Positions 15,568 to 32,299 of a stretch of 38,937 nt of DNA are shown here, piece by piece; within the stretch, counting starts at the first letter, position 1; each line of letters opens with the position of its first letter. The notes below the pieces were generated by a model. It searched no databases, was not told the DNA's origin, and saw only the letters and a list, made by a program, of their open reading frames with translations. The DNA is from a virus, in the IMG/VR virus record IMGVR_UViG_3300008050_009071, positions 1-38,937 of that record. One strand, given 5' to 3'. The translations under genes and the position numbers were made by a program.

Positions 15568-15950
15568 TAGTCTTGTTCCTCAATCTTCGAGAAGATGTCG
15601 TCTGAGTCTATTGTCAATTTTCTTTCAACTTCTTTTGCAACAATTTGTGCTAAAGTCAAGAGTTGTTCATTTGACTTAGACATCCTTTCCAGGTACTTCA
15701 CCAAAATGGGTCCCATTGACGCGTGATCTGAACTGGATGACCCCAGCAAAGTAAATGCTTGGGTGAAAAGAGCAGAAGCAATTGTTCGATCACCTGAAGC
15801 GTTATCATAGATCTCGACCCACAATGACATCTTTTGTGGATCAGCGCCACTTAGTTCCTGCATGACCTCTTTGAATGATTCGATTCTTTTTTTGGAGCGC
15901 TTGTTTTTCTCTAGCAGTTTTTCAATCTTCTTGGCGTCAGTTGCTTTCAT
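15567..15950 (-). CDS. Conserved-looking small helical protein next to the late sigma gene
   Basis: A 127-residue protein from the ATG at 15950, which has AGGAGG and AAGGA upstream; a longer frame from 15986 lies inside the sigma gene and lacks support. The N-terminus is strongly basic (KATDAKKIEKLLEKNKRSKK), followed by predicted helices. The central LWVEIYDNASGDRTIASALF and ILVKYLERMSKSNEQLLTLA, ending in an acidic DSDDIFSKIEEQD tail, recall a conserved small protein of T4-like environmental phages. I cannot assign a name or function. Its start overlaps the end of the gp55-like sigma gene by 14 bases, suggesting coupling and perhaps a partner in late transcription or tail assembly. A UvsY-like role is possible but unsupported by a motif. 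Confidence 0.75.
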   Translation of the reverse strand: MKATDAKKIEKLLEKNKRSKKRIESFKEVMQELSGADPQKMSLWVEIYDNASGDRTIASALFTQAFTLLGSSSSDHASMGPILVKYLERMSKSNEQLLTLAQIVAKEVERKLTIDSDDIFSKIEEQD

Positions 15951-16680
15951 TTTCGATCCTTGCCTCCTCTGCCAAGATCTGGGCATATGCCTTTCGGATC
16001 TTGCTCATCGACTTCGTCACAATCTTCTTTTCCATGCCGGAGATCTCAACTAAGTAGACATAGATCGATTGTTTGTTAATGAAATCTAGCTCTTCTACAG
16101 AATCAAACAGCTTTTCGACGGCATCCATTACGCGCAGGTCCTTCGCATCAGACAAAAACGTTCGTATTCTCTTGACCCGAGCGACTTGTTCAGCCCTCTT
16201 CTCTCGGTCGAGCATCATTTCTTCGGTCGATGGAAGCTCAATGTATGAAGAGAGTTGCTTTTGTGTATCTCGACTGAGGTTTTCTGCATCACTCAGATAC
16301 ACATGCTTGTAGTACTTCTTTCGATGGCTGTTGGTTGCATTAATCAAGAAGTTCTTTGCAACAACATTGAAGTACGAAAAAGCCTTCGACCCCTTGTTTG
16401 GGTCCCACTTATGAAGGGAGTTGTAGAGAGAGAAATTGCACTCCTCAATTAACTCTGCTGTTGACATCAAAGGAGACTTGAACCCATAGACGTAAATCAG
16501 GCTTTCAGATAGCTTCGACACCGCCGGCAAAATACTTTTCCCGTAAATGAGTTCTCGCTGTCGGGTGTCTTCAGCGCCCAAAAATGCCAAAATAGCAACT
16601 TCGGTGTTCTTGTCAAAATACAAAACACTCTTTTGCCCGGGCTTTCGCTTAATTCTCTTTCTCTTTTTCTTTACTGTCAT
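15937..16680 (-). CDS. Late transcription sigma factor, gp55-like
   Basis: A 247-residue protein resembling the T4 gp55 family of small sigma-70-related factors, which direct host RNA polymerase to late promoters together with the sliding clamp. Residues about 75-125 carry the region-2-like core: ELIEECNFSLYNSLHKWDPN, then KGSKAFSYFNVVAKNFLINA and an arginine/lysine/aromatic stretch (HRKKYYKHVYLSD). A helical segment at about 200-232 (KQSIYVYLVEIS...SKIRKAYAQIL) could be a region-4-like or clamp-contact end. The N-terminus is very basic (KKKRKRIKRKPGQKS). It is longer than T4 gp55 (185 residues). The start overlaps the membrane protein stop by four bases, with GGGGAACAAGA upstream. It would control the structural genes that follow it. 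Confidence 0.85.
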   Translation of the reverse strand: MTVKKKRKRIKRKPGQKSVLYFDKNTEVAILAFLGAEDTRQRELIYGKSILPAVSKLSESLIYVYGFKSPLMSTAELIEECNFSLYNSLHKWDPNKGSKAFSYFNVVAKNFLINATNSHRKKYYKHVYLSDAENLSRDTQKQLSSYIELPSTEEMMLDREKRAEQVARVKRIRTFLSDAKDLRVMDAVEKLFDSVEELDFINKQSIYVYLVEISGMEKKIVTKSMSKIRKAYAQILAEEARIENESN

Positions 16681-19447: not shown

Positions 19448-20359
19448 TTAGATCTTGCAGTTGTCGGTGCCAGCAAACTCACAAAATCTGCAGCTATATC
19501 GATTCTTGAGTGCCATTCCGCGATCCATCAACCGGATCATGCTGGACACCTTCTTCTTAGCTCTTTCCATCATCTTTGGTCCAGATGATACCTCAACAAT
19601 GTCCACCGATTTTCTGGGTTTTCCGGACTTCATGGGCTGAACATCTCGCTTCAGGAGAACGAAAGCGGCCTGGACTTTTGATGATGGCAGGCCTGTCTTT
19701 TTCATCCAGTAGATCTTGTAGAGGATGATCTGGAATTGTGTTAGCTCATCCTTCTTTTTGTCTGATCTCCAACCGGCTGGACCAGATGTTTTCCAATCGA
19801 TGACAACATTCTTTCCGCTCGGGAGTTCAAGAACGCAGTCGATGAATCCCTTGAAGTGGCCAACCTCTCCTTCAATCGGGCTGTAGATTCGATACTCTGC
19901 AGACAAAGGCTTCCAGCCCGGCCAGGTCTCATCAAGAAACTCCGGAAGCCCGGTCAAGGCATTCTTCGCCGAATCCAGCCAACCTTGCAAATGAACATGC
20001 TTGTACTTCCAGTCTTGACTCAGTGCACGGGCTGTCTGGGCTTTGATGAATTCGGGTGTATCAAACCCATTCTTTTTCCACGCAGCTCGTATCTTTTTGT
20101 ACACTGCCTCCAGATCGATTGTTCTGGTTTTCAAAAATCCTTCGGCAGCTTCATGAACAATGGTTCCGTAATCAAGATAGGGACTGATGTCGTTTTCTTT
20201 CTTCTTCTCGATGTACAACAACTTGTGTCGCCACGGGCAAGAAGCCCAGGTGCTAACCTCTGAATATGAAACGTGCGGCTTTCCATTTTTCAGAAGGGGT
20301 AGGGACTTGTCTATTGCTGGTTCTTTTCTCATCAAGCTTATTGTATCAGGTTTAGACAC
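19448..20359 (-). CDS. PD-(D/E)XK nuclease with Fe-S cysteines, Cas4/AddB/RecB-like
   Basis: A 303-residue nuclease of the PD-(D/E)XK superfamily. Motifs in order: SYSEVSTWASCPWRHKLLY with Cys41, GTIVHEAAEGFL (His motif), GFIDCVLEL (Asp), VIDWKTS (D-x-K catalytic motif) and QFQIILYKIYW (Q-x-x-x-Y). The C-terminus has Cys290, Cys293 and Cys301 (CRFCEFAGTDNC). One N-terminal plus three C-terminal cysteines is the arrangement that binds a 4Fe-4S cluster in Cas4 and AddB nucleases. Such enzymes process DNA ends in recombination or replication. The start is a GTG at 20359 (an in-frame stop lies just upstream) without a clear ribosome site; an ATG at 20332 is possible. It is the one non-carbohydrate gene within the sugar cluster. 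Confidence 0.9.
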   Translation of the reverse strand: MSKPDTISLMRKEPAIDKSLPLLKNGKPHVSYSEVSTWASCPWRHKLLYIEKKKENDISPYLDYGTIVHEAAEGFLKTRTIDLEAVYKKIRAAWKKNGFDTPEFIKAQTARALSQDWKYKHVHLQGWLDSAKNALTGLPEFLDETWPGWKPLSAEYRIYSPIEGEVGHFKGFIDCVLELPSGKNVVIDWKTSGPAGWRSDKKKDELTQFQIILYKIYWMKKTGLPSSKVQAAFVLLKRDVQPMKSGKPRKSVDIVEVSSGPKMMERAKKKVSSMIRLMDRGMALKNRYSCRFCEFAGTDNCKI

Positions 20360-20369
20360 AATTTACACG

Positions 20370-21326
20370 TCAGATCTCTGACACCGCTCGACCGGTCAAT
20401 TTTTCCCAATCCTTTTGAGGGCGGACCTCGAGATTCTTCTCCCAGACAGCCGACATCACTTTCGGATCGATGCCCAATTGACGGGCAACAAAGATGAGTG
20501 CATTGAGATCTTTCACAAAACAGCTTCCGCCAAATCCAAAAACAGCTTCGCCAGTATCATCTGACGGCATTGGTCCCGGGACCTTCCAGTGGGACTTTCC
20601 GAGGCGCTCGTCTCGAGTTGCAACCTCAATGACTTCATCGTAGTCGATGCCGAAACCCTTTTCATCAAGGGCAGTGCAGACCTGATACAACTCATTTGCC
20701 AGGGAAACCTTGGCAGCAAGATGTATGTTTGTCACATACTTGACCATCTCAGCAGTGGTTGAAGTTGTTTTGACAATGGGAACATTTGGGAAGTATCGCT
20801 GGTACAGATTTCGGACCTTGTTGATCTGCGGCCGGTCGCCACCCAGAACAATTCGGTCTTGATCTCTCATATCTTCCAGAGCTGTTGCTTCGCGAAGAAA
20901 CTCCGGGTTGAAAATCACTGACAGGGACTTACCGTATTTGATATTCCACAGACGAGTATAGCCGGGCGGAACTGTTGATTTGATGACAGCAATTCTTTCC
21001 GAGTCCTCTGTCGCCAATTCGCTCAAAACGGAGTCCAAAATTGAAAGATCAGCAAACCCATCGGGCTTCATCGGAGTGGGCAGACACAAAAAGAAGATGC
21101 CTGAGAATGACGGATTCAGTTCACAAGACTTGGCAAACTCCTTTGTGGAGTATTGTGGCTGCGACTTGATGTAGCTTTTGTACAGCTGTTGGGATCTTGG
21201 GTCCACGCCGCCTGGAGAAACCTTGTCGGACTTATCATACACAAGTACCCTGGCGCCCTTCTCGGAAAAGACTGTCGTGAGCGATCCGCCCACAAATCCT
21301 TGTCCAATTACTGCTATAGATTTCAT
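20370..21326 (-). CDS. UDP-glucose/nucleotide-sugar 6-dehydrogenase-like, lacking the C-terminal domain
   Basis: A 318-residue member of the UDP-glucose/GDP-mannose dehydrogenase family, which oxidises a nucleotide hexose to the uronate in two NAD-dependent steps. Visible elements: GQGFVGGSL (NAD loop, residues 8-16), FLCLPTPMKPDG, KSTVPPGYT, FNPEFLREA with Glu145, VKYVTNIHLAAKVSLANE with Lys206, and FGGSCFVKDLNAL with the catalytic Cys269 and Lys273. The catalytic set appears complete. The protein stops just after the central helical linker, so the C-terminal UDP-binding Rossmann domain found in the usual 390-450-residue enzymes is missing. It directly follows the epimerase gene with AAAGGAGGAGTAA as a strong ribosome site, consistent with UDP-Glc to UDP-GlcA and on to UDP-GalA. 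Confidence 0.88.
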   Translation of the reverse strand: MKSIAVIGQGFVGGSLTTVFSEKGARVLVYDKSDKVSPGGVDPRSQQLYKSYIKSQPQYSTKEFAKSCELNPSFSGIFFLCLPTPMKPDGFADLSILDSVLSELATEDSERIAVIKSTVPPGYTRLWNIKYGKSLSVIFNPEFLREATALEDMRDQDRIVLGGDRPQINKVRNLYQRYFPNVPIVKTTSTTAEMVKYVTNIHLAAKVSLANELYQVCTALDEKGFGIDYDEVIEVATRDERLGKSHWKVPGPMPSDDTGEAVFGFGGSCFVKDLNALIFVARQLGIDPKVMSAVWEKNLEVRPQKDWEKLTGRAVSEI

Positions 21327-22199
21327 TTACTCCTCCTTTAGATTCTTGCAAAACTCTGCAACGTATTCTGGCAAGCTTCTTTCCGGTTGCCAGGATGTAT
21401 GATCAGCTATCAAGGATGCGTCAGCAAGTGTATTACGAGCTTCGCCTGGCCTCTTTGGCAAATATATCTTGGTGCCGCCGAACATATCGGCGAGCTGGTT
21501 GATGGAGTAGTTAACTCCGGTTCCGATATTGAAAATCCAAGTGCTGTCGTTTTCACTCCAATCCTTTTCTCCAAGTGCAGCAAATCCCTTGACAATGTCG
21601 TACACATGAGTGAAGTCGCGGCGTTGCTCTCCGTCATCAGTTACAGTCAAAGGCTCACCCCGGGTCGTCTGGCCTTCAAATATCGCTACGATTGTAGCCC
21701 ATTTTCCAGTTGTTGGCTGGCGGGCTCCATACACATTGAAGAATCTGGCGGCCACAGTACTGACCCCGAAAACCTCATGATAAAGTTGACACACTTGTTC
21801 GCCTGTGTATTTTGCAAAAGCGTACGGATTCAAAAACGGGCCCGCGTATGCAGACGATGATCCGGCATAGACAATCCGGCATTTCAGTTTTCGGGCCAGT
21901 TCACACACTGCGGCCGTTCCCATGATGTCATTTGACAAATACTCCAGCGGAATCTCAAATGAGGGCTGGATTCGAGCAAATGCTGCCAAGTGATAGATGA
22001 CATCATAGTCTGGATGATCGTGATCACAGATTTGTCGAACATCATTTTTCGTATAGCACACGTCGCTTCTCATGTATTTTTCTGATGATGACTCAGTGCT
22101 AAGATTGTCCCACACATATACTGCGTGTCCCAAATCCCTCAGATGATCAACCAGATGGGATCCAATGAATCCCAGACCTCCTGTAACTAACACTTTCAT
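21327..22199 (-). CDS. NAD-dependent sugar epimerase/dehydratase (UDP-hexose 4-epimerase-like)
   Basis: A 290-residue extended short-chain dehydrogenase. TGGLGFIGSH at residues 6-15 is the NAD-binding loop, DNLSTE at 31-36 follows strand 2, and IYHLAAFARI at 68-77 is the typical strand-4 motif. The active site is SSSAYAG (114-120) with Tyr126 and Lys130 in NPYAFAKYTGE, and RFFNVYGARQ (152-161) and RDFTHVYDIV (195-204) are the substrate-side motifs of UDP-Glc/GlcNAc/GlcA 4-epimerases. Exact substrate specificity is not readable. A UDP-xylose synthase is less likely because its usual CYDEGKR-type active site is absent. With the dehydrogenase next door, UDP-glucuronate 4-epimerisation is a reasonable guess. 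The ribosome site is ACGGAGGATTC. Confidence 0.9.
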   Translation of the reverse strand: MKVLVTGGLGFIGSHLVDHLRDLGHAVYVWDNLSTESSSEKYMRSDVCYTKNDVRQICDHDHPDYDVIYHLAAFARIQPSFEIPLEYLSNDIMGTAAVCELARKLKCRIVYAGSSSAYAGPFLNPYAFAKYTGEQVCQLYHEVFGVSTVAARFFNVYGARQPTTGKWATIVAIFEGQTTRGEPLTVTDDGEQRRDFTHVYDIVKGFAALGEKDWSENDSTWIFNIGTGVNYSINQLADMFGGTKIYLPKRPGEARNTLADASLIADHTSWQPERSLPEYVAEFCKNLKEE

Positions 22200-22210
22200 G
22201 AATCCTCCGT

Positions 22211-23107
22211 CTACAGCTGTTGAATCAGCTCCCTGTACTTTTCATATCCCGCCGGAAGAACCAGATCTTCAACCACTGGAACTGATGGCGTAGCAAGGGT
22301 TACATCCTCGTTGATTGATGCCGGCGGCAATACTTGCTCGGCGATGCCAACAGATCGTGACACCATCGGAATGTTCAGTAAGCCACACTCCACAAAAGAC
22401 TGTGGGCCGCCTTCGAACCTAGCAGTAACTGGATACAAGTCAAGAGTCTGATACAGTTCGTTTAGAGTTGGCTGTTCTGCCATTTCGAAATAGGTGTAAA
22501 GAATCCCAGCGCTTTCGAGTCTTGAAATGATGTATTGGCGGCGCCAGCCACCCAAAACAACATGAAGATCCTTATCTTTCTGCCAGACTTCCAGAGCATC
22601 GGCCAAAATGTCCGGACCCTTTTCCAACTTGGGTGATACAAGATCATGCCCCTCTGTGTCTCTTTGAAACGATCCGACTAAAAAGGCGTTTGCCGGAAGT
22701 CCATGCTTTTTCCTGAGGTTTTGTTTGCTATCTGTTTGTTTCCAGATTTTTTGATTGGCCCAGAACGGGAACATAACGATGGGTTTGTTCGTTAGCTGGG
22801 CCACATGAATACGCGTATGTGAATTCGGAACATGATAGACGTCAGTAAACCTATCACGATCGTTAAACTCGGCGACCTCGTGAGGCCCAAACTTTTCTGG
22901 AACTAAGTGATGGATGGTTGTTATAACACGTTTGGAAGCAAGAATGCTCGGATCAATTTTTCGATAACACCAGTCTGCAAGAAGCCATACAACGTCGGAT
23001 TCATGTGGATTGAGTACACTGATATCTTCATTGTCTTGATTCCACTCAGCGACAAACCGATCTACGATCCAGTTTTCCCCGGGAGCCAAGACGAAAACTT
23101 TTCTCAT
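22211..23107 (-). CDS. Glycosyltransferase, GT-B/GT4-like
   Basis: A 298-residue GT-B-like glycosyltransferase, shorter than the typical 350-400. The N-terminal half is compact (RKVFVLAPGENWIVDRFVAE, ITTIHHLVPEKFG, VYHVPNSHTR). The C-terminal half shows VGSFQRDTEG, EKGPDILADAL, the donor-site E-x7-E at 232-240 (EGGPQSFVECGLLNIPMVS) and a following Gly/Glu turn (SVGIAEQVL). This matches the GT4 pattern. It overlaps the carbamoyltransferase stop by four bases, suggesting coupled expression. Donor and acceptor are unknown. Confidence 0.85.
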   Translation of the reverse strand: MRKVFVLAPGENWIVDRFVAEWNQDNEDISVLNPHESDVVWLLADWCYRKIDPSILASKRVITTIHHLVPEKFGPHEVAEFNDRDRFTDVYHVPNSHTRIHVAQLTNKPIVMFPFWANQKIWKQTDSKQNLRKKHGLPANAFLVGSFQRDTEGHDLVSPKLEKGPDILADALEVWQKDKDLHVVLGGWRRQYIISRLESAGILYTYFEMAEQPTLNELYQTLDLYPVTARFEGGPQSFVECGLLNIPMVSRSVGIAEQVLPPASINEDVTLATPSVPVVEDLVLPAGYEKYRELIQQL

Positions 23108-24759
23108 TGGGTCACCTCTTTCTTTTTCGAGATCAAGATTTTCTCAGAGCTGATGTACAAATCGTCGATATCTGTTCCCAGGAAGCAGTTCAATGCATGC
23201 CCTGGCGTTTCACAAATTGGTTCTCGGTCATTAAAGCTGGTGTTCAACAGTATGGGAACTCCGGTCTTTTCTTCCCACTTTTTCAGCAAGCTATAGTACC
23301 ACGGATTGTCCTTCTCGGATACTGTTTGTAGCCGGGCAGATCCATCATGGTGACAGATTGCTGGAACTTGATCCTGCTTATCATCACGAATAGGCATCAC
23401 ATACTGCATGTATGGGCTGTTAACATCGTGGGTGAACCAATCAGTCACCTTTTCTCGCAAAATTGATGGTGCAAAGGGCCGGAACCACTGGCGATGCTTG
23501 ACCTTCAAGTTGACAATATTTTTCATCTCAGGATTTCGTGGGTCTGCTAGAATACTTCGATTGCCAAGGGCGCGGCGGCCAGACTCAGATCCCTCGTTGA
23601 AAACAGAAACGATGTGTCCCTTCTCCAGGAGGTTACAGACGTCATCAATCTCAACATTGAACTTTGTGTGCATCCCGCTGGTCATAACGCAATCTAAGAA
23701 TCCCTCATCAATCGGCCAGGTTTCCCCAAGATAGGGAGAGCAATTGTCTTCCCATGCAATTCTTGGGTTCCTTAGCACTGAATGATACACATACTGTGCT
23801 GCACCAATACTGAGGCCTCCATCGTACGGGACGGGTGGGATGTATACATTCCATCCCATGTCAGTATACTTTCGGTAGAGTTGACCCATTGCAACTGAGT
23901 TTAGGGCAACCCCTCCTGATGTGCAGATGTTCTTCTGTCCGGTCCAGGAGCTGGTGGCGAGTGTTACAAACTCATCTAAGAGTCGCTCTGTTGCGGCTTG
24001 AAGGCCTGCTGCCAAGTCAAAGAGATTCTTTTCGTTTTCGTCTGCCAGCTTTGCCCATCGATCAAGATACGGATGGGTTGGATCTTTTCCGGCGACGTAT
24101 GCTCCGATGGGCTGTGTGGGCGGCTTCATTCCGGCGGGTATCACATCAGCTGTTAGCATTTTGTAGAAGTCATCGGAAAATCGGGTCGGGTCTCCGAAAG
24201 CAGCCATTGCCATGATGGTCCCTTCTTGACCCCCAAGTGGCCAGCCATTCTGGAGCTTGAAAACGTAACGAGTCACTCTTGACCAAACACCGCCAATGTT
24301 GATGGCACGTGGGCTGAAGTAACATCGATTTTGTACGTCTAGTCCTTCACCGCTCCAAACTGCCATGGCGGACTCGACTCCCTCCTTGTTCTCAACACCG
24401 CCGCCGTCAATTGTAAAAATAAGAGCTTCTTCAAAATCAGAGGAAAAGAAGGCGTTGCATGCATGAGCAGCATGGTGAGGAACCACTGTTATGTTTCCGC
24501 CGTTCTTAGATACAGCTTGCCGAACAGACTCTAGGCTTTCCTGGAATTTTTCATACTTTTGCACCGGATACACGATTGCAAGCTCAGAGATGCTTTCATA
24601 ATCCGGATATCGCTCCATCAGAAACTTTAGTGAATCACTTGGTGCACACTTTTCCCGAGAGTACCTTTCAAACTCCGCGTGAATAACGGGCTTTCCGTCA
24701 TGGAGAACCACAAACGAAGAATCGTGACCTGACCAGCATCCTGCTATTTTCTGAACCAT
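23104..24759 (-). CDS. O-carbamoyltransferase, NodU/CmcH (TobZ) family
   Basis: A 551-residue carbamoyltransferase from the ATG at 24759, which lies two bases after the previous stop with AGAGAGTAAC upstream. An in-frame ATG at 24780 would overlap the methyltransferase gene and its AGGAA is too far away. The N-terminal Kae1-like domain has GCWSGHDSSFVVLHDG and the metal/ATP signature VVPHHAAHACNAFF, plus FTIDGGGVENKEG. The central NICTSGGVALNSVAMGQLYR is the second nucleotide-binding signature. The C-terminal YrdC-like part shows NEGSESGRRALGNRSILADP and HRQWFRPFAPSIL. The family transfers carbamoyl from carbamoyl phosphate via carbamoyl-AMP to a hydroxyl of a sugar or nodulation factor. Here it presumably decorates the sugar made or transferred by its neighbours. 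Length fits the family. Confidence 0.93.
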   Translation of the reverse strand: MVQKIAGCWSGHDSSFVVLHDGKPVIHAEFERYSREKCAPSDSLKFLMERYPDYESISELAIVYPVQKYEKFQESLESVRQAVSKNGGNITVVPHHAAHACNAFFSSDFEEALIFTIDGGGVENKEGVESAMAVWSGEGLDVQNRCYFSPRAINIGGVWSRVTRYVFKLQNGWPLGGQEGTIMAMAAFGDPTRFSDDFYKMLTADVIPAGMKPPTQPIGAYVAGKDPTHPYLDRWAKLADENEKNLFDLAAGLQAATERLLDEFVTLATSSWTGQKNICTSGGVALNSVAMGQLYRKYTDMGWNVYIPPVPYDGGLSIGAAQYVYHSVLRNPRIAWEDNCSPYLGETWPIDEGFLDCVMTSGMHTKFNVEIDDVCNLLEKGHIVSVFNEGSESGRRALGNRSILADPRNPEMKNIVNLKVKHRQWFRPFAPSILREKVTDWFTHDVNSPYMQYVMPIRDDKQDQVPAICHHDGSARLQTVSEKDNPWYYSLLKKWEEKTGVPILLNTSFNDREPICETPGHALNCFLGTDIDDLYISSEKILISKKKEVTQ

Positions 24760-24760
24760 G

Positions 24761-25390
24761 TTACTCTCTTGTGTTGACATCTAGATCAACGATAATTCCT
24801 TCCCAATCCAGCAAAGCCTCGAAGCTTGTGTTTCCAAACTGTGTTCCTGGCGGTAGCCCAATGTAGTGAATCGAAAACGGCGTTGCAGTTTTTGACAGAG
24901 AAGCCATCCACTTTTTGACGGCAGCTCTAACCTCTTCGAAAGCTCCAAAATCATCAAACACAAATGTCTTGACCCCACACTGTAAGGCAGATTCAATGTC
25001 GTAGCTGACACAATCTTCAGTATGAACTGCATCAATTATTGCCAGATCAAACTCTCGGGTTGACATAGCTTCTCGAAACTCCGGATCATACAGATCGTGA
25101 TTCAATGCCTCAACGTTGTCGAACCCAAGATTTTCAATTGCCTCACAGTTTTCTGGCCTAAAATCGATTGAAACAAGCTTTGAAACAAGAGGGGCAATCA
25201 CACATGTTGTATGACCCTGGGCACCACCAATCTCGAGAAGATGCTTCTTAGGTTTGCCTGTCAAATATTGCATCAGCCCTATTTTCCACATTCGAGACGT
25301 TGTGGTTTTCCACTCAAACTTATCAGGAACAGTGATCAGCTTCTGGCATGCAGCGTTGATATCAGATGGTGTTACGTCGTGTGTCATCAT
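24761..25390 (-). CDS. Class I SAM-dependent methyltransferase-like protein
   Basis: A 209-residue Rossmann-like protein. LLEIGGAQGHTT at residues 51-62 is motif I of class I methyltransferases, LVSIDFRPENCEAIENLG is motif II, and FDLAIIDAVHTEDCVSYDIE followed by VKTFVFDDFG is the motif IV/V region seen in the Methyltransf_24-type group, which often modifies small molecules or sugars. The acceptor is unknown. The start is an ATGATG pair at 25390 with AGGATAATGTC upstream, after a 35-base gap. It is closely spaced with the carbamoyltransferase that follows, so O-methylation and O-carbamoylation may act on the same glycan. Confidence 0.85.
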   Translation of the reverse strand: MMTHDVTPSDINAACQKLITVPDKFEWKTTTSRMWKIGLMQYLTGKPKKHLLEIGGAQGHTTCVIAPLVSKLVSIDFRPENCEAIENLGFDNVEALNHDLYDPEFREAMSTREFDLAIIDAVHTEDCVSYDIESALQCGVKTFVFDDFGAFEEVRAAVKKWMASLSKTATPFSIHYIGLPPGTQFGNTSFEALLDWEGIIVDLDVNTRE

Positions 25391-25425: not shown

Positions 25426-26337
25426 CTACTTTCTCCCAAAGGCATCAATGTATAGATCTGCTATCAAATCAATTTCAAGGAAGTCGTTCTCAACTCGAAT
25501 CTCGGGAAGCTCGAATCCTGATAGCTCCAGTTTGTATGGGTTGTCGTAATCTGTTAGTTCGAACCGATATGGAGTTGTTTCCGGCAAGACAACACCGTTT
25601 CCCTTTACAATCTCCTGGGTCCCGCCGGAGTCGGTGCAAATGACCGGACAGTTCTGTGAAATAGCTTCCACAACTGTATTTGGGCAATGATCCAACCATG
25701 CAAGATGAATCATCCAGTCGGCGGCTGAGTATATCTGCATCATGATATCCCATGGAAGATTTCCTGTGTAGAAAACTCCGGGAGTTGGTTTTGTGTAATC
25801 TGGACTGCCTCCCATTACAAGCAAACAAGAAGACGGATATGTCTGCTTGAGCAGTGAGAAAAGCTCGATGTTCTCTTGAAGCCTTTTCTGTCGGTGCCAA
25901 TTAGCAGCACAAACAAACACTTTTTCGTATTTTTGTCGTAGGCCTAGAATGTCTGGGTTTGTTACTTCGACCCGCGCAAGATCAATTCCGTTTCGAATGA
26001 TTGATCCTTTTTTGGGTCCCCAGTGATGACAGATCATTCCTTTGTCAAACTCCGACTGCCAGATCACGTGGTCAGCCAGATCGTATGTTCTTTTGATGCC
26101 TGAGTTATGAGACAAAAACTCCTCAGGCTTGAACCAAATCCCGTCTAGACGAGTAAAGAGTTTCGATTTTGGGGACTTTTGGTTGATTTGCTCAATAAAA
26201 GCAAGATGAATGTCGGCCTCAGCTGGGTCTGGAACGATCACACATCCTTTCTGCTTCAAAACGGGAGCCACCCGAGAAGCAAACGAATTAGGCCCAGATC
26301 TGCTATTGAAGTTCACATTATCGAAAAAGATGTTCAT
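25426..26337 (-). CDS. Glycosyltransferase, GT4-like
   Basis: A 303-residue GT-B-like protein with a short N-terminal domain (NIFFDNVNFNSRSGPNSFAS, with the Gly/Ser loop after strand 1). The donor domain has VFVCAANWHRQKRLQENIEL, then MQIYSAADWMIHLAWLDHCP and the glutamate motif NTVVEAISQNCPVICTDSGG with Glu224, which is the GT4 donor site. Its first glutamate is replaced by Asp/His (LDHCPN), as in some family members. The start overlaps the upstream aldolase-like stop by four bases (ATGA). Substrates unknown. Confidence 0.88.
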   Translation of the reverse strand: MNIFFDNVNFNSRSGPNSFASRVAPVLKQKGCVIVPDPAEADIHLAFIEQINQKSPKSKLFTRLDGIWFKPEEFLSHNSGIKRTYDLADHVIWQSEFDKGMICHHWGPKKGSIIRNGIDLARVEVTNPDILGLRQKYEKVFVCAANWHRQKRLQENIELFSLLKQTYPSSCLLVMGGSPDYTKPTPGVFYTGNLPWDIMMQIYSAADWMIHLAWLDHCPNTVVEAISQNCPVICTDSGGTQEIVKGNGVVLPETTPYRFELTDYDNPYKLELSGFELPEIRVENDFLEIDLIADLYIDAFGRK

Positions 26338-27314
26338 GTCAGTACCGCGTAAATGTAATTGAGCTTCCTCAGAATTGCTAGACGAATCTCATCATCAAAT
26401 TTGTCATTACCCAGGCGGGCCACAATGCTCTTGAATTCCGGGGTCGAAAAAACGTAGTGGCCACAAACAGAAGTAATCCTTTCTCTCTCAGCCTCCGGCT
26501 CAATCCATTTCGTCCATGTCCCAGACCTTATGCACAATTCGATAAACTCTTCACGAAGATCGGGCTTGGCAGTGAGAAGCTCCAAAACCCGCTTTGTCTC
26601 CGTCAAGCCCAGTTCCGGAGCAATATTGAAAGAGTCGACGCCAGCTTTCCTTCTCTGCACAAACTCCTCAACACTCAAATAATCAGAGTTGTGCTCCTTC
26701 GTTTTGAGCCCAAATGAATGACAAATCGTTGCCATCTCCCTAGACCTTACAGCATCAAATTCTCCGTCATTTCCATCTGCTCGAACTCGAGTTCCCGACT
26801 GAATCACACAGTAAACGATCTTTTTGAAATCAGCAGGCGACAAATCTCTAGTCAGAATATCCAAAAATCGACGCAAATCAGATGCTGTGTATGGAAAAAT
26901 TGCCTCCTCAGTTCCTACCTCGAAGTGACATTCATTATCATCTAGCAGACACCTTTCCACAAGCTTAATGGTCATAGCGGCTGCATCTTCAATATTTGAA
27001 GCGATCTTCCATGGATCGACATGAATAAACTTCACCCCTGCTTTGATGTCGGACAGAATGCTTTCTACTCCGTCATCTCCTGTCTTTCCCTGTGCCGGGC
27101 CGGCATGATCCCTTAGAACAAGAGTTTCTCCGACGTACTTCTGAAAATCCTGGGTTGACCAATTGTTGACATACCCGCACCCCAGAGACTTCGCCTCAAT
27201 CTGGCGGCGGGATGGTATGAATCCAAAATAGTCCCCATGAGATCTGTTGAACTCGAGAACAGTGTCGACGACGTTTTTTGTCATCGGTCCCAGAAAAAAT
27301 TGTCGATGAAACAT
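26334..27314 (-). CDS. TIM-barrel aldolase-like protein (GatZ/KbaZ-related)
   Basis: A 326-residue protein with the alternating strand/helix pattern of a TIM barrel. Conserved-looking strand ends in order: FGFIPSRRQIE, GYVNNWSTQDF, LRDHAGPAQG (68-77), FIHVDPWK (96-103), FEVGTEEA (131-138), VIQSGTRV (171-178), TKEHNSDYLS (205-214) and FNIAPELG (229-236). The layout of an N..T-x-x-F, D-H-x-GP, H-x-DP, GTE, QSGT and E-H-x-x-DY series resembles GatZ/KbaZ, the non-catalytic partner of class II tagatose-bisphosphate aldolases, and related proteins in capsule clusters. Whether it is catalytic is unknown; His70 and the acidic residues could bind a metal. It sits between a GT and the nucleotidyltransferase-kinase gene with near-zero spacing. 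GAGGTAAC precedes its ATG. Confidence 0.65.
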   Translation of the reverse strand: MFHRQFFLGPMTKNVVDTVLEFNRSHGDYFGFIPSRRQIEAKSLGCGYVNNWSTQDFQKYVGETLVLRDHAGPAQGKTGDDGVESILSDIKAGVKFIHVDPWKIASNIEDAAAMTIKLVERCLLDDNECHFEVGTEEAIFPYTASDLRRFLDILTRDLSPADFKKIVYCVIQSGTRVRADGNDGEFDAVRSREMATICHSFGLKTKEHNSDYLSVEEFVQRRKAGVDSFNIAPELGLTETKRVLELLTAKPDLREEFIELCIRSGTWTKWIEPEAERERITSVCGHYVFSTPEFKSIVARLGNDKFDDEIRLAILRKLNYIYAVLT

Positions 27315-27315
27315 G

Positions 27316-28881
27316 TTACCTCATTTGCATGGCAAGGTGGAGATTGTATTTTCCAAATGAAAAGAGAAACTTGTCAAGTGGGTGTTCATGGAGTGGCGAC
27401 ATGTTGAGCCAGATGATTGCTGTCAAAACATCAACCTTTGCCTGATCGAAGAAGTTTTGGTTGATGAATTGTCGCAAAATGTCCTTGCACTCCAGAAGAC
27501 GACTGTTGCAAGCCAGATCACAAATGAAATCATCTCCGTGGGTCTCTGCCCTAAACATTCCTGTATTGACCAGATCGTGATTGAATGTAAGATTGTGATT
27601 AAGCTTGGCCAGATCGTAATAGACATCACCAACATCCAAACTACCAGCAAAATCCTGTCGCCAGTCAATCAAAGAAAACGATCCGGGTGTCTTTATCACG
27701 TTGTCAAGAATCAAGTCTCCGTGAAATCCGCCGGGAGATCCATCGCTCAACCACTCCACATCCAACCTATCAATCATTGTCATAGCCGATGGAACTGTTT
27801 CGCCATTTATGACAGTCGGTGTGTCTTTGTAAGATGTTTTGGCGAGATATTCTTTGATCCGCTTCTTTGTCTTGGTCACATAGAACTCATAACAAAGACG
27901 ACGGAAAACCTCTGGCTCCACCTCTGCGTCTTTCCACAGTTCGGCGGAGCACCACTCAAGAAACTCTCGAAACATGCTTCTGTTGGCCACCCTCGAAAAG
28001 AGATCGCCGCTCTCGAACGAATATGAGTAAAAATTGTCTGTTGATGCCAAGATGACCGGAACTGTGTTTCCCAAGATTTTAGCTCGAGCAACGCGCTTCT
28101 TGTTCATCTCTTCATCAGCGAAGAACTTTATGACAGTATCGTTGACGAAATAGATTGACTCGGTGCTCTTGTCCAGGACTTCATGTTCACACTTGAAAAA
28201 TGATCGGGCTTTTCTGAGGGCGCCCACGTTTCCGACGTCAAACCACTTGTTGAACTCAACAAATGAGAATGATCCCGGGCTTTGTAAGATCATTGCATTC
28301 AGAACATGGCAGTCAGAAAGATGGCTATTTTCAAAATCGCAGCTCGCGAGAACATGCCAAAATGCCTTGAAGTCTGCAACTTTGCAAATTCCGACATACG
28401 AAAAGTCAAATGCCAGAGATCCTTTTTCATTGATGTTGAGGATTTCTCTATTTTCTACGTTGAGTGTTCTGTATTGCGATGAATCAGGCACGTTGCATCC
28501 AGCAATCCAGCTGTCGGATGAATCATGTGGGATCTTGTCCAGGACGATTGTATCACATGCGTGAAAAATGAACGGGCATTGTAGCTTCTCTTGGGCTTGC
28601 AGCATCGAATAGCCCAGACTGCTGCCGGGTCCGTCGTATTTGTCGACAACAACGAACTCAAACGTTCGATCAGGATGAGCCAACAATAAGAAGTCTCTAA
28701 CATTTTTCCCGAAATGGCCAAGAGTTACCACAAACGAAACATCAGGTGGGTATGAATCAACGACATGAGAAATCACTGCCTTGTCTCCGACCCGAACCAG
28801 GCTTTTGTTGGTGTGGTTGGTGACATCTCCCAGTCGAGATCCCAGACCGCTGGTTGTAAGAAGAACTTTAAACTCGGCCAT
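27316..28881 (-). CDS. Bifunctional nucleotidyltransferase - aminoglycoside/choline-kinase-like protein
   Basis: A 521-residue fusion. Residues 1-230 are a sugar/alcohol-phosphate nucleotidyltransferase: KVLLTTSGLGSRLGDVTN with Lys26 in NKSLVRVGDKAVI, the acid at Asp110 in FHACDTIV, and WFDVGNVGAL at 213-222. Residues about 235-521 are a kinase of the APH/choline-kinase fold: FHGDLILDNVI with His387, Asp389 and Asn394 as the catalytic loop, and SLIDWRQD with Asp406 as the metal-binding aspartate. Together they would phosphorylate a substrate and activate a phosphate to an NDP derivative, as in LicC/LicA-type or heptose-type pathways. The actual substrate is not readable. It overlaps the HAD-cupin gene by 14 bases and abuts the aldolase-like gene, forming a three-gene set. 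The ribosome site is GAGGACAAAT. Confidence 0.88.
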   Translation of the reverse strand: MAEFKVLLTTSGLGSRLGDVTNHTNKSLVRVGDKAVISHVVDSYPPDVSFVVTLGHFGKNVRDFLLLAHPDRTFEFVVVDKYDGPGSSLGYSMLQAQEKLQCPFIFHACDTIVLDKIPHDSSDSWIAGCNVPDSSQYRTLNVENREILNINEKGSLAFDFSYVGICKVADFKAFWHVLASCDFENSHLSDCHVLNAMILQSPGSFSFVEFNKWFDVGNVGALRKARSFFKCEHEVLDKSTESIYFVNDTVIKFFADEEMNKKRVARAKILGNTVPVILASTDNFYSYSFESGDLFSRVANRSMFREFLEWCSAELWKDAEVEPEVFRRLCYEFYVTKTKKRIKEYLAKTSYKDTPTVINGETVPSAMTMIDRLDVEWLSDGSPGGFHGDLILDNVIKTPGSFSLIDWRQDFAGSLDVGDVYYDLAKLNHNLTFNHDLVNTGMFRAETHGDDFICDLACNSRLLECKDILRQFINQNFFDQAKVDVLTAIIWLNMSPLHEHPLDKFLFSFGKYNLHLAMQMR

Positions 28882-29590
28882 ATTTGTCCTCTAGTCTTGT
28901 GATGTCATCTTCTCCGAAGTATGATCCGGTTTGAACCTCTATGAAAACCAGTGGCTCTCCTGACGTGCATGAAATCGTATGAGGTTGTCCTGCCTTGATA
29001 TTGACATGATCCTCGGGGTCCACTTCGATTTCTTTGTCATCCAGCCTAACCGTTCCGGTTCCTGACACGACAATCCAGTGCTCATCTCGTTTTGCATGAA
29101 CTTGATAGCTTGGGCACTGTCCTGGATCAACTTCGATTCTTTTGATCTTGTATTTCTCATCATCATGAAGATTCCAGAACTTTCCCCAGGGCCGAGACTC
29201 AGTTGGAAGATCCGGATCGATATCAATCCTTGCAAGTCCTGAGTTTCTTGCAACACAAATGGCTCGAGCTGTCATATCGGACTCGGATGCATTTTCAGGT
29301 GTTTTTCCTGGCTTGAGATCGTTGATTACAACTCTCTGCCCCCGGGGTAATCCCATTACCAAATGATCCCAAAACAATCCGGCGTGCTGTAGTTGCTTCT
29401 CAGTTTCCTTTCTCTGACTTTCTTTTCGGCCTGTCGTCAAAACTATGAAATGTCCTTTTGACTGCCATCTATTGATTTTTTCCCGAGTTTGTGGCAAAAC
29501 ATGGGCCGGCTTGATTGTCTGGCCACTCAGGCCTTGGCCATGATGCCAGAATAGAACTCCATCAATATCACAAAAAATTGTCTTACTCAT
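28868..29590 (-). CDS. HAD phosphatase - cupin (type II mannose-6-phosphate-isomerase-like) fusion
   Basis: A 240-residue two-domain protein. Residues 1-120 are a small HAD phosphatase: FCDIDGVLF with Asp8 and Asp10 as nucleophile and acid, LTTGR at 51-55 (motif II) and VVINDLKPG with Asp91 (motif IV). Residues about 128-240 are a cupin matching the isomerase domain of bifunctional GDP-mannose pyrophosphorylase/phosphomannose isomerases: SRPWGKFWNL, YKIKRIEVDPGQCPSYQVHA, HWIVVSGTGTVRLDD, HVNIKAGQPHTIS and FIEVQTGSYFGEDDITRLED. Metal-ligand histidines and a glutamate/glutamine are present. The fusion suggests dephosphorylation and isomerisation (or epimerisation) of a sugar phosphate in one pathway. 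It overlaps the next gene and is overlapped by the previous one by four bases. Confidence 0.9.
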   Translation of the reverse strand: MSKTIFCDIDGVLFWHHGQGLSGQTIKPAHVLPQTREKINRWQSKGHFIVLTTGRKESQRKETEKQLQHAGLFWDHLVMGLPRGQRVVINDLKPGKTPENASESDMTARAICVARNSGLARIDIDPDLPTESRPWGKFWNLHDDEKYKIKRIEVDPGQCPSYQVHAKRDEHWIVVSGTGTVRLDDKEIEVDPEDHVNIKAGQPHTISCTSGEPLVFIEVQTGSYFGEDDITRLEDKYGRV

Positions 29591-30444
29591 TTCTTCTCCA
29601 TCTCAGAATACTTCGGACTGCTTTCCAAAACCCCTGTCTTGACTTCGTTGACCCATCCATGCGAATTCTGAGAGTTTTTTTCAACCTCATGAACATCGTA
29701 TAGATCCCTGACTAAAGGTGCCGGCCCCATCTTCGCACCTATTGCCCCTTGATCCCATGGCCTTTCCGGTCCGATAAACTGAATGTTGTCTTCGCCGATT
29801 GTGTTTGCAACCAAAGCTCTAGCAAGGAAATGACTATGAACACCCCATCGAGGAAAAACGTCAATGTCTTTTACATGGTCAAACATAGAGCAGATGGTAT
29901 CAACATGGGCAGGCCCAGATATGAAAAACAGATCTTGAATCCCATGGTGACTGAGCGGTGGAATCACATACAGTTTGTCGGCGGCCAGTTGAGAAAAATC
30001 GATAGGAACCACATAAGCCAAGTCAAAACGCGTCAGCATAACCATGTCGTAATCCACGTCGGCACTTTTTCGAAGGGTATTAACGATCTTGGCACTATAC
30101 CAGCGGCTGAACAGTGAATGAAATCTGATGTTCTCTATTCCGTGGAACACGCCATTCTCAGTTTTCCCATCGTTCATCGGCAGGTTTGGGTTTCCAACAA
30201 TGTATCGAAAATCAAAATGAATCTGCTTTTCAAACAGAGCACCTTTGGGATCATACAATCCTCTCAGTATTTCTTCGCTCTCAGTTGACCATGAGTGCAT
30301 GAAAACGTCAACCTGATCATTTGGGTTTGCATTCACGATGTTTTTGACAAAGTGATCATGAGACAAGCTTAGGTCAATATTTTGTCCGGTCCCGTATTTG
30401 TTGACTGTTCCTGCCAGTCCATGCATCAATATTGCGATTTTCAA
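29587..30444 (-). CDS. Putative glycosyltransferase-like protein, family uncertain
   Basis: A 285-residue protein with a Rossmann-like start (MKIAILMHGLAGTVNKYG) and no membrane segment. The central DYDMVMLTRFDLAYVVPIDF (131-150) looks like the acidic donor motif of a GT-A fold protein, with RFDL in the usual D-x-D position. VFMHSWSTESEEIL earlier and a HSHFLARALVAN helix later are also glycosyltransferase-like. I do not recognise a named family. All flanking genes are carbohydrate enzymes and it overlaps both neighbours by four bases, so a transferase or acceptor-binding role is likely. A polysaccharide-related protein of unknown chemistry is the alternative. Confidence 0.7.
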   Translation of the reverse strand: MKIAILMHGLAGTVNKYGTGQNIDLSLSHDHFVKNIVNANPNDQVDVFMHSWSTESEEILRGLYDPKGALFEKQIHFDFRYIVGNPNLPMNDGKTENGVFHGIENIRFHSLFSRWYSAKIVNTLRKSADVDYDMVMLTRFDLAYVVPIDFSQLAADKLYVIPPLSHHGIQDLFFISGPAHVDTICSMFDHVKDIDVFPRWGVHSHFLARALVANTIGEDNIQFIGPERPWDQGAIGAKMGPAPLVRDLYDVHEVEKNSQNSHGWVNEVKTGVLESSPKYSEMEKK

Positions 30445-31502
30445 ACCACCACCTCACTCAAAATCCTCGCCACAGCTTTGGACGACTCTACACATGTGTC
30501 TATTTTTCCAGAGAACACGTTAATCATTTTATCACCGTCAAACTCAACCAGGGTTGGTCGCTTATCAGTTGCATCCACGTCCGGAAGAACCGTTCGGACA
30601 GTAAACATCGATGCGACATACTCGGCTTTGCTGAGCGCCGGAATGTAGCACTCTCCCGATTCCTTGATTTTCTGGAAGTTAGACCTTTGTGGGTTTTTAA
30701 CAAACCCAACATTGAGATCCTTGACCATATCGGGCGGAACTTCGGCACTGTGGCCGACATTGGTGTGATGAATTGCATGTACAACATTTCCCAGCAATGA
30801 AAGCCCGGTTGTTCCGTAAGGATCCACGCACATAAATGGCCCATCCATTACCACGATACTTTTCTTTGAGATCGACTCCGGCATCTTGACAATGATTTTT
30901 TCGCAGACCTCAAACTGATAGTTCTGCTTTTTATCATCATCGACAATGTCATTTAGTCTTGCATACGTGCAGTTGATAACAATGTCAAACTCACTGGCAT
31001 CAGCTTTGGTGAAGTCGGTTCCAAAAGACGTGTGAATTCTTGATTGTCGGATGCGCTGCCAGCAAAGATCATACAGTTTTTTGTAGTCAAGTAAGTTTTC
31101 CTTGACCTGAAGTGTCAAAGCAATTCGGTCGTTTGCCACATGCTGAAAGTTTGTGACCGGTAGATATTCCAGCCCGAATTCGTCACAGAATTTTGTATAC
31201 TCCTCTGCACTGACGAAACTCTGCTCATTGGCAATGCAGTAAAAGTGATCGAAATTACTCAAAATGGCTGGCTGATATTCACTGGCAAACGAAGCAAGAG
31301 AAGACAGCAATGATGAAACTGTGTCGGGGGCTCGAGGGTAGTGGTACCCACGATGCAACCGCAACTGATTTGTTCGGCTGGCCGCTGTCAAAATATCGTA
31401 TGCTGTATCACACAGAGTCACATAGTACTCTGGGTTCTCACTAGATAGCCGAGCCGCTATTGTTGTTCCAAAAATTCCTGCGCCTACTACTGCTATTTTC
31501 AT
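30441..31502 (-). CDS. FAD-dependent oxidoreductase, DAO-like
   Basis: A 353-residue flavoprotein-like enzyme. The N-terminus KIAVVGAGIFGTTIAARLSS is the Gly-rich dinucleotide fold binding FAD, and the D-amino-acid-oxidase-type signature continues with an acid at the end of strand 2 (CDTA) and NQLRLHRGYHYPRAPDTVSS. The C-terminal half has RTVLPDVDATDKRPTLVEFD and a final FSGKIDTCVESSKAVARIL, where the second FAD-contacting Gly region usually lies. The substrate is unknown; within a sugar cluster it may oxidise a hydroxyl or amino group of an activated sugar. Both ends overlap neighbours by four bases. The first ATG is the only one consistent with the dinucleotide motif at the very N-terminus. 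Confidence 0.85.
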   Translation of the reverse strand: MKIAVVGAGIFGTTIAARLSSENPEYYVTLCDTAYDILTAASRTNQLRLHRGYHYPRAPDTVSSLLSSLASFASEYQPAILSNFDHFYCIANEQSFVSAEEYTKFCDEFGLEYLPVTNFQHVANDRIALTLQVKENLLDYKKLYDLCWQRIRQSRIHTSFGTDFTKADASEFDIVINCTYARLNDIVDDDKKQNYQFEVCEKIIVKMPESISKKSIVVMDGPFMCVDPYGTTGLSLLGNVVHAIHHTNVGHSAEVPPDMVKDLNVGFVKNPQRSNFQKIKESGECYIPALSKAEYVASMFTVRTVLPDVDATDKRPTLVEFDGDKMINVFSGKIDTCVESSKAVARILSEVVV

Positions 31503-32299
31503 TGTCTAATCCCTTCAATGATGCTGAGAACTTCTTTTGCAAGATCCAGGTTCGAAAATCCTGTGTTTTGTTGTACGTTCCTTAGGAATAGATCCCTTTG
31601 GAAGTCCAGGGCTTTGGGATTGGGAGACCATGTCAACTCAACAGCTGGACCTTTGAAAAGGACTCTTTTTGCACCGATTGGACTACATCGGTCGATGTCA
31701 ACTGTTATCGGGTGTCCACCATAATCGTAGTGCAGCTTGCAAAAGTCCTTCTCGAGTGATTCGATGTCGAGATTCTTGATTTCGTTGTTACCAAACATAT
31801 CGATCACCATGGCAATATCGTGGGAAACCAAGTTCAACAAAATGTCATTGTTGAATGACCCGAGCTTTCTCCACACGAAGCTGATTTTGCAGGCCTGGTT
31901 GGCAACCCGTAGTTTCGTGTCATGATACTTCGGGTCAGCGAGATGCAGATAATCAATCATGCATACCAGGCTTGACCTGACTTCCTGAAGGGATGAAATC
32001 TCTTCTGGTCTTTGTGCTCCGGGCTTTTCTAAAAAGACGTGTTTTCCGGCCGTCAGGCATTCACATCCAAGTCGTGCCAGCGATTCAATGGGTGCAGCTA
32101 TGACCACGCTTTCAATATCATTGTCTTCCAGAACAGTTTTCAGATCGGTTATTCTGGCGTCCGGAATGATCGACTTCATTGCTAACAAATTGCCAGTGTT
32201 TCCGGTTGTTACAACATGAGAAATGTTGCATTTCTGTGAAAAGGACTTGGCGAGAATCCTTGCCCATGGTCCACCACCGATTATTGCAACACTTTTCAT
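31499..32299 (-). CDS. Gfo/Idh/MocA-family sugar oxidoreductase
   Basis: A 266-residue NAD(P)-dependent oxidoreductase. SVAIIGGGPWARILAKSFSQ is the dinucleotide loop, SVVIAAPIESLARLG the middle of the Rossmann fold, and HVFLEKPGAQRPEEI (87-101) carries the family EKP motif with the catalytic lysine at 92. The C-terminal alpha/beta domain is short (VDIDRCSPIGAKRVLFKGPA), so the protein is smaller than the usual 320-380 residues. Members reduce or oxidise sugars and sugar nucleotides. It overlaps the FAD enzyme by four bases, so the two redox genes may act in sequence on one sugar. Its ATG overlaps the preceding stop by one base (TAATG). Confidence 0.85.
   Translation of the reverse strand: MKSVAIIGGGPWARILAKSFSQKCNISHVVTTGNTGNLLAMKSIIPDARITDLKTVLEDNDIESVVIAAPIESLARLGCECLTAGKHVFLEKPGAQRPEEISSLQEVRSSLVCMIDYLHLADPKYHDTKLRVANQACKISFVWRKLGSFNNDILLNLVSHDIAMVIDMFGNNEIKNLDIESLEKDFCKLHYDYGGHPITVDIDRCSPIGAKRVLFKGPAVELTWSPNPKALDFQRDLFLRNVQQNTGFSNLDLAKEVLSIIEGIRQ

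Follow-up and report, generated by a model that had tools for sequence, protein, structure and literature searches.

In Pseudomonas, a HAD phosphatase (MupP), an anomeric kinase (AmgK) and a GlmU-like nucleotidyltransferase (NTase; MurU) make UDP-MurNAc from MurNAc 6-phosphate (PMC5371407), and in Campylobacter the GDP-heptose pathway formed by GmhA, HddA, GmhB and HddC serves capsules (PMC10680097). E. coli GatZ turns fructose 6-phosphate into tagatose 6-phosphate, with Asp87 as the base and His88, Glu171 and His257 as metal ligands according to modelling (PMC11907403). The functional sites named for phosphomannose isomerases (PMIs) include Ser, Gln, His and Arg, and type II PMI cupins of phages, including cyanophage ‘MPI’ genes, have already been reported and read as mannose metabolism (PMC9602691). 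The subject here is a three-gene module on the minus strand of the IMG/VR virus record IMGVR_UViG_3300008050_009071, a virus read as a marine phage, whose whole stretch of 38,937 bases is referred to as the window. In order of transcription, its genes encode a predicted HAD phosphatase fused to a cupin isomerase (HAD-cupin), an NTase fused to an APH-type kinase (NTK), and a GatZ/KbaZ-like TIM barrel. This cassette probably constitutes a complete route from a ketose phosphate of central metabolism to a nucleotide-activated rare aldose, a sugar that would be made for surface glycans.

Recurrence of the cassette in viruses and cells

The presence and conservation of the parts were computed, together with their active-site residues and folds, their co-inheritance and fusions, and the swapping of front ends. 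Counts rest on the best 80 matches per scan, near-duplicate contigs included; patterns derived from this sample served to search for the GatZ-like and NTK families, and a full-flank NTK locus is one with at least 3.5 kb on either side. An alignment-based NTK scan matched 93 viral contigs. GatZ-like, cupin and phosphatase genes accompany NTK in 45 of the 54 full-flank viral loci, an SIS isomerase, a ribulose-phosphate 3-epimerase (RPE) and a phosphatase in 8, and a GatZ-like protein with a phosphatase in 1. Scanned as a single sequence, the GatZ-like protein matched nothing in IMG/VR, while the converse alignment-based scan with its family reached 368 viral contigs; among the best 80 of these, 68 have full flanks, with NTK and a phosphatase in 68/68 and a cupin as well in 66. 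The scan of 84,980 GTDB species genomes, many of them metagenome-assembled, yielded 147 loci, the best 80 being retained, and the cassette is present in bacterial and archaeal genomes, including chromosomes of distant phyla. Among its carriers, Polynucleobacter MWH-Jannik1A5, Marinomonas colpomeniae and Chlorobium ferrooxidans are in culture. A plasmid search with a cellular NTK as query gave no match.

None of 169 viral partner genes and 2 of 149 cellular ones lie on the opposite strand. The viral genes are arranged as cupin-NTK-GatZ-HAD (28), HAD-cupin-NTK-GatZ (11) or HAD-GatZ-cupin-NTK (5), and this variation in order points to function rather than to the descent of one common segment. The 14-nt overlap of cupin and NTK is found again in 39 viral loci, and cupin and NTK are fused in 21 viral open reading frames (ORFs). 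HAD and cupin are separate neighbouring genes in most other loci; their fusion is also present in loci L177, L219 and L221. The cassette parts cluster in dozens of independent loci, viral as well as cellular, which is well beyond chance, and chance clustering is rejected on the co-occurrence seen in both directions. The original prediction, made from the letters of the window, had proposed this neighbourhood search for the three families, which do co-occur in viral and cellular loci; its notion of a self-contained activated-sugar pathway, which drew on the isomerase, kinase, phosphatase and nucleotidyltransferase activities of the module, gains support from the co-occurrence of these families elsewhere.

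Predicted activities of the cassette proteins

The C-terminal half of NTK matches the APH family PF01636 at 23.9 bits (cutoff 23.2), and its NTase domain falls below curated cutoffs (NTP_transf_3, 20.4 against 27; Arch_glmU, 33.8 against 292). The structure of NTK is predicted with a local distance difference test score (pLDDT) of 92.7, and a fold search with the NTase domain returns UDP-glucose pyrophosphorylase (GalU), RmlA, LicC and MurU at Z 23.6-26.5, with GalU and RmlA at 24-26.5 and LicC (1jyk) at 26.1. Kinase residues H387, G388, D389, N394 and D406 are invariant in 68/68 diverse NTK representatives, and the catalytic residues of the NTase (GxGxR, a Lys and two Asp: G12, G14, R16, K26, D110 and D215) are invariant or nearly so. 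NTK matches PHROG 4098 across nearly its full length (6e-14); its nearest PHROG families, 4098 and 3980, carry no assigned function in PHROG, and no NCBIfam equivalog exists for NTK.

The cupin domain matches PF01050 (4.6e-30, 104.6 bits, cutoff 23.6). Its conserved columns are S161, Q163, H165, E170, H204, E218 and R232, and the Ser, Gln, His and Arg of PMIs are kept as S161, Q163, H165 and R232. It lacks a fused GDP-mannose pyrophosphorylase domain, its fusion partner being HAD in the window and NTK in the 21 viral ORFs. The HAD part gives weak HAD matches, and its residues D8, D10, T53 and D91 (DxD, T and acidic motif IV) are kept across 64 viral HADs. That two of the three genes are fusions, as first proposed, is borne out by the domain matches of HAD-cupin and NTK.

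The GatZ-like protein of the window has no Pfam match at E<=0.1, and homologues pass the PF08013 cutoff of 26.7 (L002, 56.9 bits, 2e-15; L127, 30.8 bits). A phmmer search with the protein against PDB sequences gave chance-level matches only, whereas a profile of the family matches E. coli GatZ (2fiq) at E=1.4e-12. Its predicted structure (pLDDT 94.9) matches 2fiq with Z 31.2 and a root-mean-square deviation of 2.4 over 317 residues, followed by 3txv (Z 29.3), the archaeal tagatose 4-epimerase 9kcs (Z 26.9) and UxaE (Z 25.4); these nearest folds include known C4 epimerases. In the profile alignment, D69, H70, E136 and H208 correspond to D87, H88, E171 and H257 of E. coli GatZ, and E136 is replaced by D in one viral subclade. 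The original prediction rightly placed a TIM barrel in the module, but the aldolase-like role that it gave this protein is not retained, the GatZ-type fold and residues making a ketose-phosphate epimerase likelier. GatZ matches labelled ‘Listeria phage’ were set aside: they are unverified contigs, and the one read in detail (L003) lies in a host-type phosphotransferase system region.

Interchangeable front ends

In Proteobacteria, Chlorobium, Prochlorococcus and Pelagibacter relatives, the gene order is KdsC-like phosphatase, GatZ, a 274-aa protein, cupin, NTK and a C-methyltransferase-like gene. In many Patescibacteria and some viruses, an SIS isomerase and an RPE-type epimerase precede NTK in place of GatZ and cupin; the former passes the curated cutoff for 6-phospho-3-hexuloisomerase (HxlB-type; 194.7 against 160 bits) and the latter that for RPE (224.3 against 212.6). 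Among 153 NTK loci, the GatZ/cupin front end occurs in 117, the SIS/RPE front end in 34, neither in 2 and both in 0. By parsimony, the front end has switched 11 times on a FastTree tree, with at least 5 switches forced by supported branches, and 9 times on an IQ-TREE tree of 68 representatives, with at least 6 forced, the supports of the FastTree and quick IQ-TREE analyses being approximate. Since GatZ and cupin are swapped pairwise for RPE-type and HxlB-type enzymes, the front end must carry out epimerisation and isomerisation. The phosphatase is exchanged as well, and is a small HAD of DxDG type, a small HAD of DxDD type (weakly EcbF-BcbF-like) or a KdsC-like protein.

The catalytic residues of NTK are identical in both front-end groups. 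No NTK residue consistently tracks the front-end type across the 6 usable independent tree pairs, a test of little power whose outcome is compatible with a single shared product. It is a tentative proposal, with the balance slightly against it, that both enzyme pairs, swapped repeatedly as units and accompanied by at least three interchangeable phosphatases, feed one kinase-nucleotidyltransferase and lead to the same rare aldose (e.g. of talose, allose or altrose type), in a widespread undescribed pathway.

Other proteins are encoded beside the cassette in cells. A 377-aa methyltransferase with a C-terminal C-methyltransferase domain, PF08484 (L127 10564-11697 and relatives), adjoins it in 44 of the 80 genome loci, with both front ends, and may methylate the product sugar. 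The 274-aa protein between GatZ and cupin (L127 7800-8624, about 23 genome loci) has no Pfam match, is glycosyltransferase-like by eye and is a candidate dedicated transferase.

Proposed route and alternatives

We infer every reaction of the route and its substrate, as well as the nucleotide, the sequence of steps 3 and 4 and what the product is used for. In step 1, the GatZ-like Zn enzyme would epimerise a ketose phosphate, likeliest fructose 6-phosphate, via retro-aldol/aldol chemistry, to give tagatose 6-phosphate by epimerisation at C4 or allulose 6-phosphate at C3. The cupin would convert this epimer to an aldose 6-phosphate (step 2), from which the HAD domain would strip the 6-phosphate (step 3) before the APH-type domain adds a phosphate to the anomeric hydroxyl (step 4). 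The NTase domain would then transfer a nucleoside monophosphate, yielding an NDP-sugar for the adjoining glycosyltransferases (step 5). Starting from fructose 6-phosphate, epimerisation at C4 would give a sugar of galactose/talose type. Epimerisation at C3, which RPE/AlsE carry out and of which a retro-aldol enzyme would be capable, would give one of allose/altrose type; this option gains appeal if the two front ends replace each other one for one.

Several points weigh against the route in this form. RmlA, GalU and LicC resemble the NTase domain to about the same degree, so that neither the nucleotide nor even the substrate class is fixed by the fold of this domain. The substrate residues E44 and K279 of GatZ are I33 and N230 in the GatZ-like protein, which therefore belongs to a distinct subfamily whose exact epimerisation is unreadable from sequence and which may not be C4-specific. 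An epimerase or regulator role is conceivable for the cupin, and heptulose or pentulose phosphates are candidate substrates; hexose, heptose and pentose substrates are all possible, in decreasing order of likelihood. The kinase might also act ahead of the phosphatase, as it does on the way to GDP-heptose.

The strongest competitor of the hexose route, although rather unlikely, would convert sedoheptulose 7-phosphate to an NDP-heptose epimer, with the kinase preceding the phosphatase as for GDP-heptose. It would draw on the same four activities as GmhA/HddA/GmhB/HddC (PMC10680097), and one viral HAD variant weakly matches GmhB. However, the window cassette has neither a GmhA-type SIS nor a GHMP kinase, the SIS of the alternative front end is HxlB-type (above the model cutoff) rather than GmhA-type, and hexulose or pentulose phosphates are the substrates of the closest relatives characterised for the GatZ-like and RPE-like enzymes. 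A conversion of ribulose or xylulose 5-phosphate to an NDP-pentose is less probable still: the alternative epimerase does exceed the curated RPE cutoff, but the isomerase paired with it is HxlB-type, a hexulose-phosphate family, and GatZ is a hexulose-6-phosphate enzyme.

The cargo of NTK could also be other than a sugar, namely a phosphorylated amino alcohol or polyol activated in a LicA/LicC-like manner, with GatZ, cupin and HAD performing an unrelated modification. APH-fold kinases include choline kinases, and LicC (1jyk, Z 26.1) ranks almost level with sugar NTases among the fold matches of the NTase domain. Such a cargo is nevertheless highly improbable, as the strict partners of NTK are sugar-phosphate epimerases and isomerases, swapped only for others of that kind, and the conserved set comprises no reductase or aminotransferase. 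Where an activated sugar or polyol had been predicted, the sugar is retained and the polyol, which a cassette without reductase does not favour, is rejected. That these are unlinked hitchhikers, sugar genes merely accumulating together in phage glycan islands, is barely credible: the window is indeed rich in glycosyltransferases and other sugar genes, but NTK is found in 68/68 full-flank GatZ-like loci, and the 14-nt overlap, the gene fusions and the recurrence of the set in chromosomes of distantly related phyla speak against it.

If the route to an activated rare aldose is correct, it would be common to Patescibacteria, archaea, Proteobacteria, picocyanobacteria, SAR86/Pelagibacter relatives and marine phages, and aquatic surface glycans would probably contain its product as a frequent monosaccharide that has so far escaped notice. 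The route would give a function to phage proteins now of the unassigned PHROG 4098/3980 type, allow some phage ‘mannose-6-phosphate isomerases’ to be interpreted differently, and exemplify pathway modules whose front ends are exchanged as pairs.

Genomic setting in the window

The window carries T4-type baseplate and tail-fibre genes, plus a large glycan island (Table 1). The adjacency of the three genes reported at the outset, with an overlap of 14 bases and a gap of one, is confirmed by the ORF coordinates, the 1-nt gap separating NTK from the GatZ-like gene; the outer genes of the module each overlap the flanking gene by 4 nt. The upstream putative glycosyltransferase is a candidate user of the cassette product, and a look-alike, matched by sequence start, adjoins the cassette in about 21 viral loci.

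Table 1. Features of the module and its flanking genes in the window
Feature	Position	Strand	Remarks
Putative glycosyltransferase, family unassigned	29587..30444	-	Upstream; 4-nt overlap with HAD-cupin gene
HAD phosphatase-cupin isomerase fusion	29590-28868	-	240 aa
HAD domain, predicted sugar-phosphate phosphatase	29243..29590	-	D8xD10, T53, R55, D91
Cupin domain, type II phosphomannose-isomerase-like, predicted aldose/ketose phosphate isomerase	28874..29194	-	PF01050
HAD-cupin/NTK gene overlap	28868..28881	-	14 nt
NTK, nucleotidyltransferase-APH-type kinase fusion	28881-27316	-	521 aa; hallmark of the cassette
NTase domain	28171..28881	-	G12xGxR16, K26, D110, K153, D215; fold match and conservation
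APH-type kinase domain, predicted anomeric sugar kinase	27319..28161	-	H387-G-D389-xxxx-N394, D406; PF01636
GatZ/KbaZ-like TIM barrel, predicted zinc-dependent ketose-phosphate epimerase	27314-26334	-	326 aa; predicted structure, fold and profile matches
GT4-type glycosyltransferase	25426..26337	-	Directly downstream of GatZ-like gene; 4-nt overlap

A DAO-like FAD/NAD-dependent oxidoreductase and a GFO/IDH/MocA-family dehydrogenase are encoded immediately upstream of the module (30441-32299); both lie outside the conserved cassette but could oxidise a sugar. In the glycan island, a NodU/NolO-type carbamoyltransferase (23104-24780; phrog_1601, 4e-107) suggests a carbamoylated glycan, and UDP-glucose/GDP-mannose dehydrogenase and NAD-dependent epimerase genes (20370-22199) represent a second NDP-sugar branch. 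A PD-(D/E)XK exonuclease (19448-20359) is located among glycosyltransferases and a tail fibre with a C-terminal S74 endosialidase-type chaperone (36063-38909) beside glycan genes, while positions 15937-16680 weakly match a T4-type late sigma factor (phrog_234, 4e-4; Sigma70_r2 under cutoff). Related phages carry an NTase-HAD fusion gene (L001 10719-12576, L017 2817-3890, L032 12044-13099 and L033 4002-5060), which in L001 comes after an APH kinase gene, forming a further compact set for sugar activation that follows the logic of the cassette.

Comparison with known systems

AmgK is an APH-type kinase. The MupP-AmgK-MurU system and the cassette would have in common the removal of a 6-phosphate, phosphorylation at C1 and formation of an NDP-sugar with no mutase, the match between the proteins being at superfamily level only. 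AmgK and MurU are separate proteins, whereas the kinase and NTase of the cassette are fused, and MurNAc is salvaged from the wall, whereas the epimerase and isomerase of the cassette would make its sugar de novo; given this front end, MurNAc is an unlikely cassette substrate.

The GDP-heptose pathway also unites an isomerase, a C1 kinase, a phosphatase and a nucleotidyltransferase. The parallel drawn with it in the original prediction holds for these four activities, but as an analogy only: an SIS isomerase and a GHMP kinase operate there, a cupin and an APH kinase in the window cassette, which contains no SIS, and the GDP-heptose pathway has no epimerase step ahead of activation. No SIS or GHMP match was found among the scanned sugar genes of the window, and membership in that pathway is rejected, as the enzyme families differ.

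GatZ and KbaZ, the tagatose 6-phosphate/fructose 6-phosphate 4-epimerases of E. coli and Agrobacterium (PMC11907403), have their fold, metal ligands and catalytic Asp in common with the window TIM barrel, but the latter is 14-17% identical, shorter, and has E44 and K279 replaced; their context is catabolic, that of the window protein biosynthetic. Some type II ‘mannose-6-phosphate isomerase’ cupins of phages from marine metagenomes (PMC9602691) may belong to the cassette and not to mannose metabolism. In the sources searched, no pathway is proposed for PHROG 4098/3980 or for cyanophage ‘MPI’ genes beyond the mannose reading. A search of open-access literature (subscription papers were outside it) turned up no pathway described for these proteins, nor one with exactly these three, which had been named as grounds for abandoning the idea. 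The module stands as a candidate undescribed system, although it is not unique to the window, many cells and phages having it too. Each chemistry on its own is known; their assembly, the NTase-kinase fusion, the biosynthetic role of GatZ and the paired exchange of front ends appear to be undescribed. Both front ends of the cassette resemble, in reverse, the catabolic routes of E. coli for D-allose (AlsE, RpiB/AlsI) and galactitol (GatZ). In E. coli these enzymes serve catabolism, whereas in the cassette the front ends are coupled to a phosphatase and an NTase-kinase, that is, to activation.

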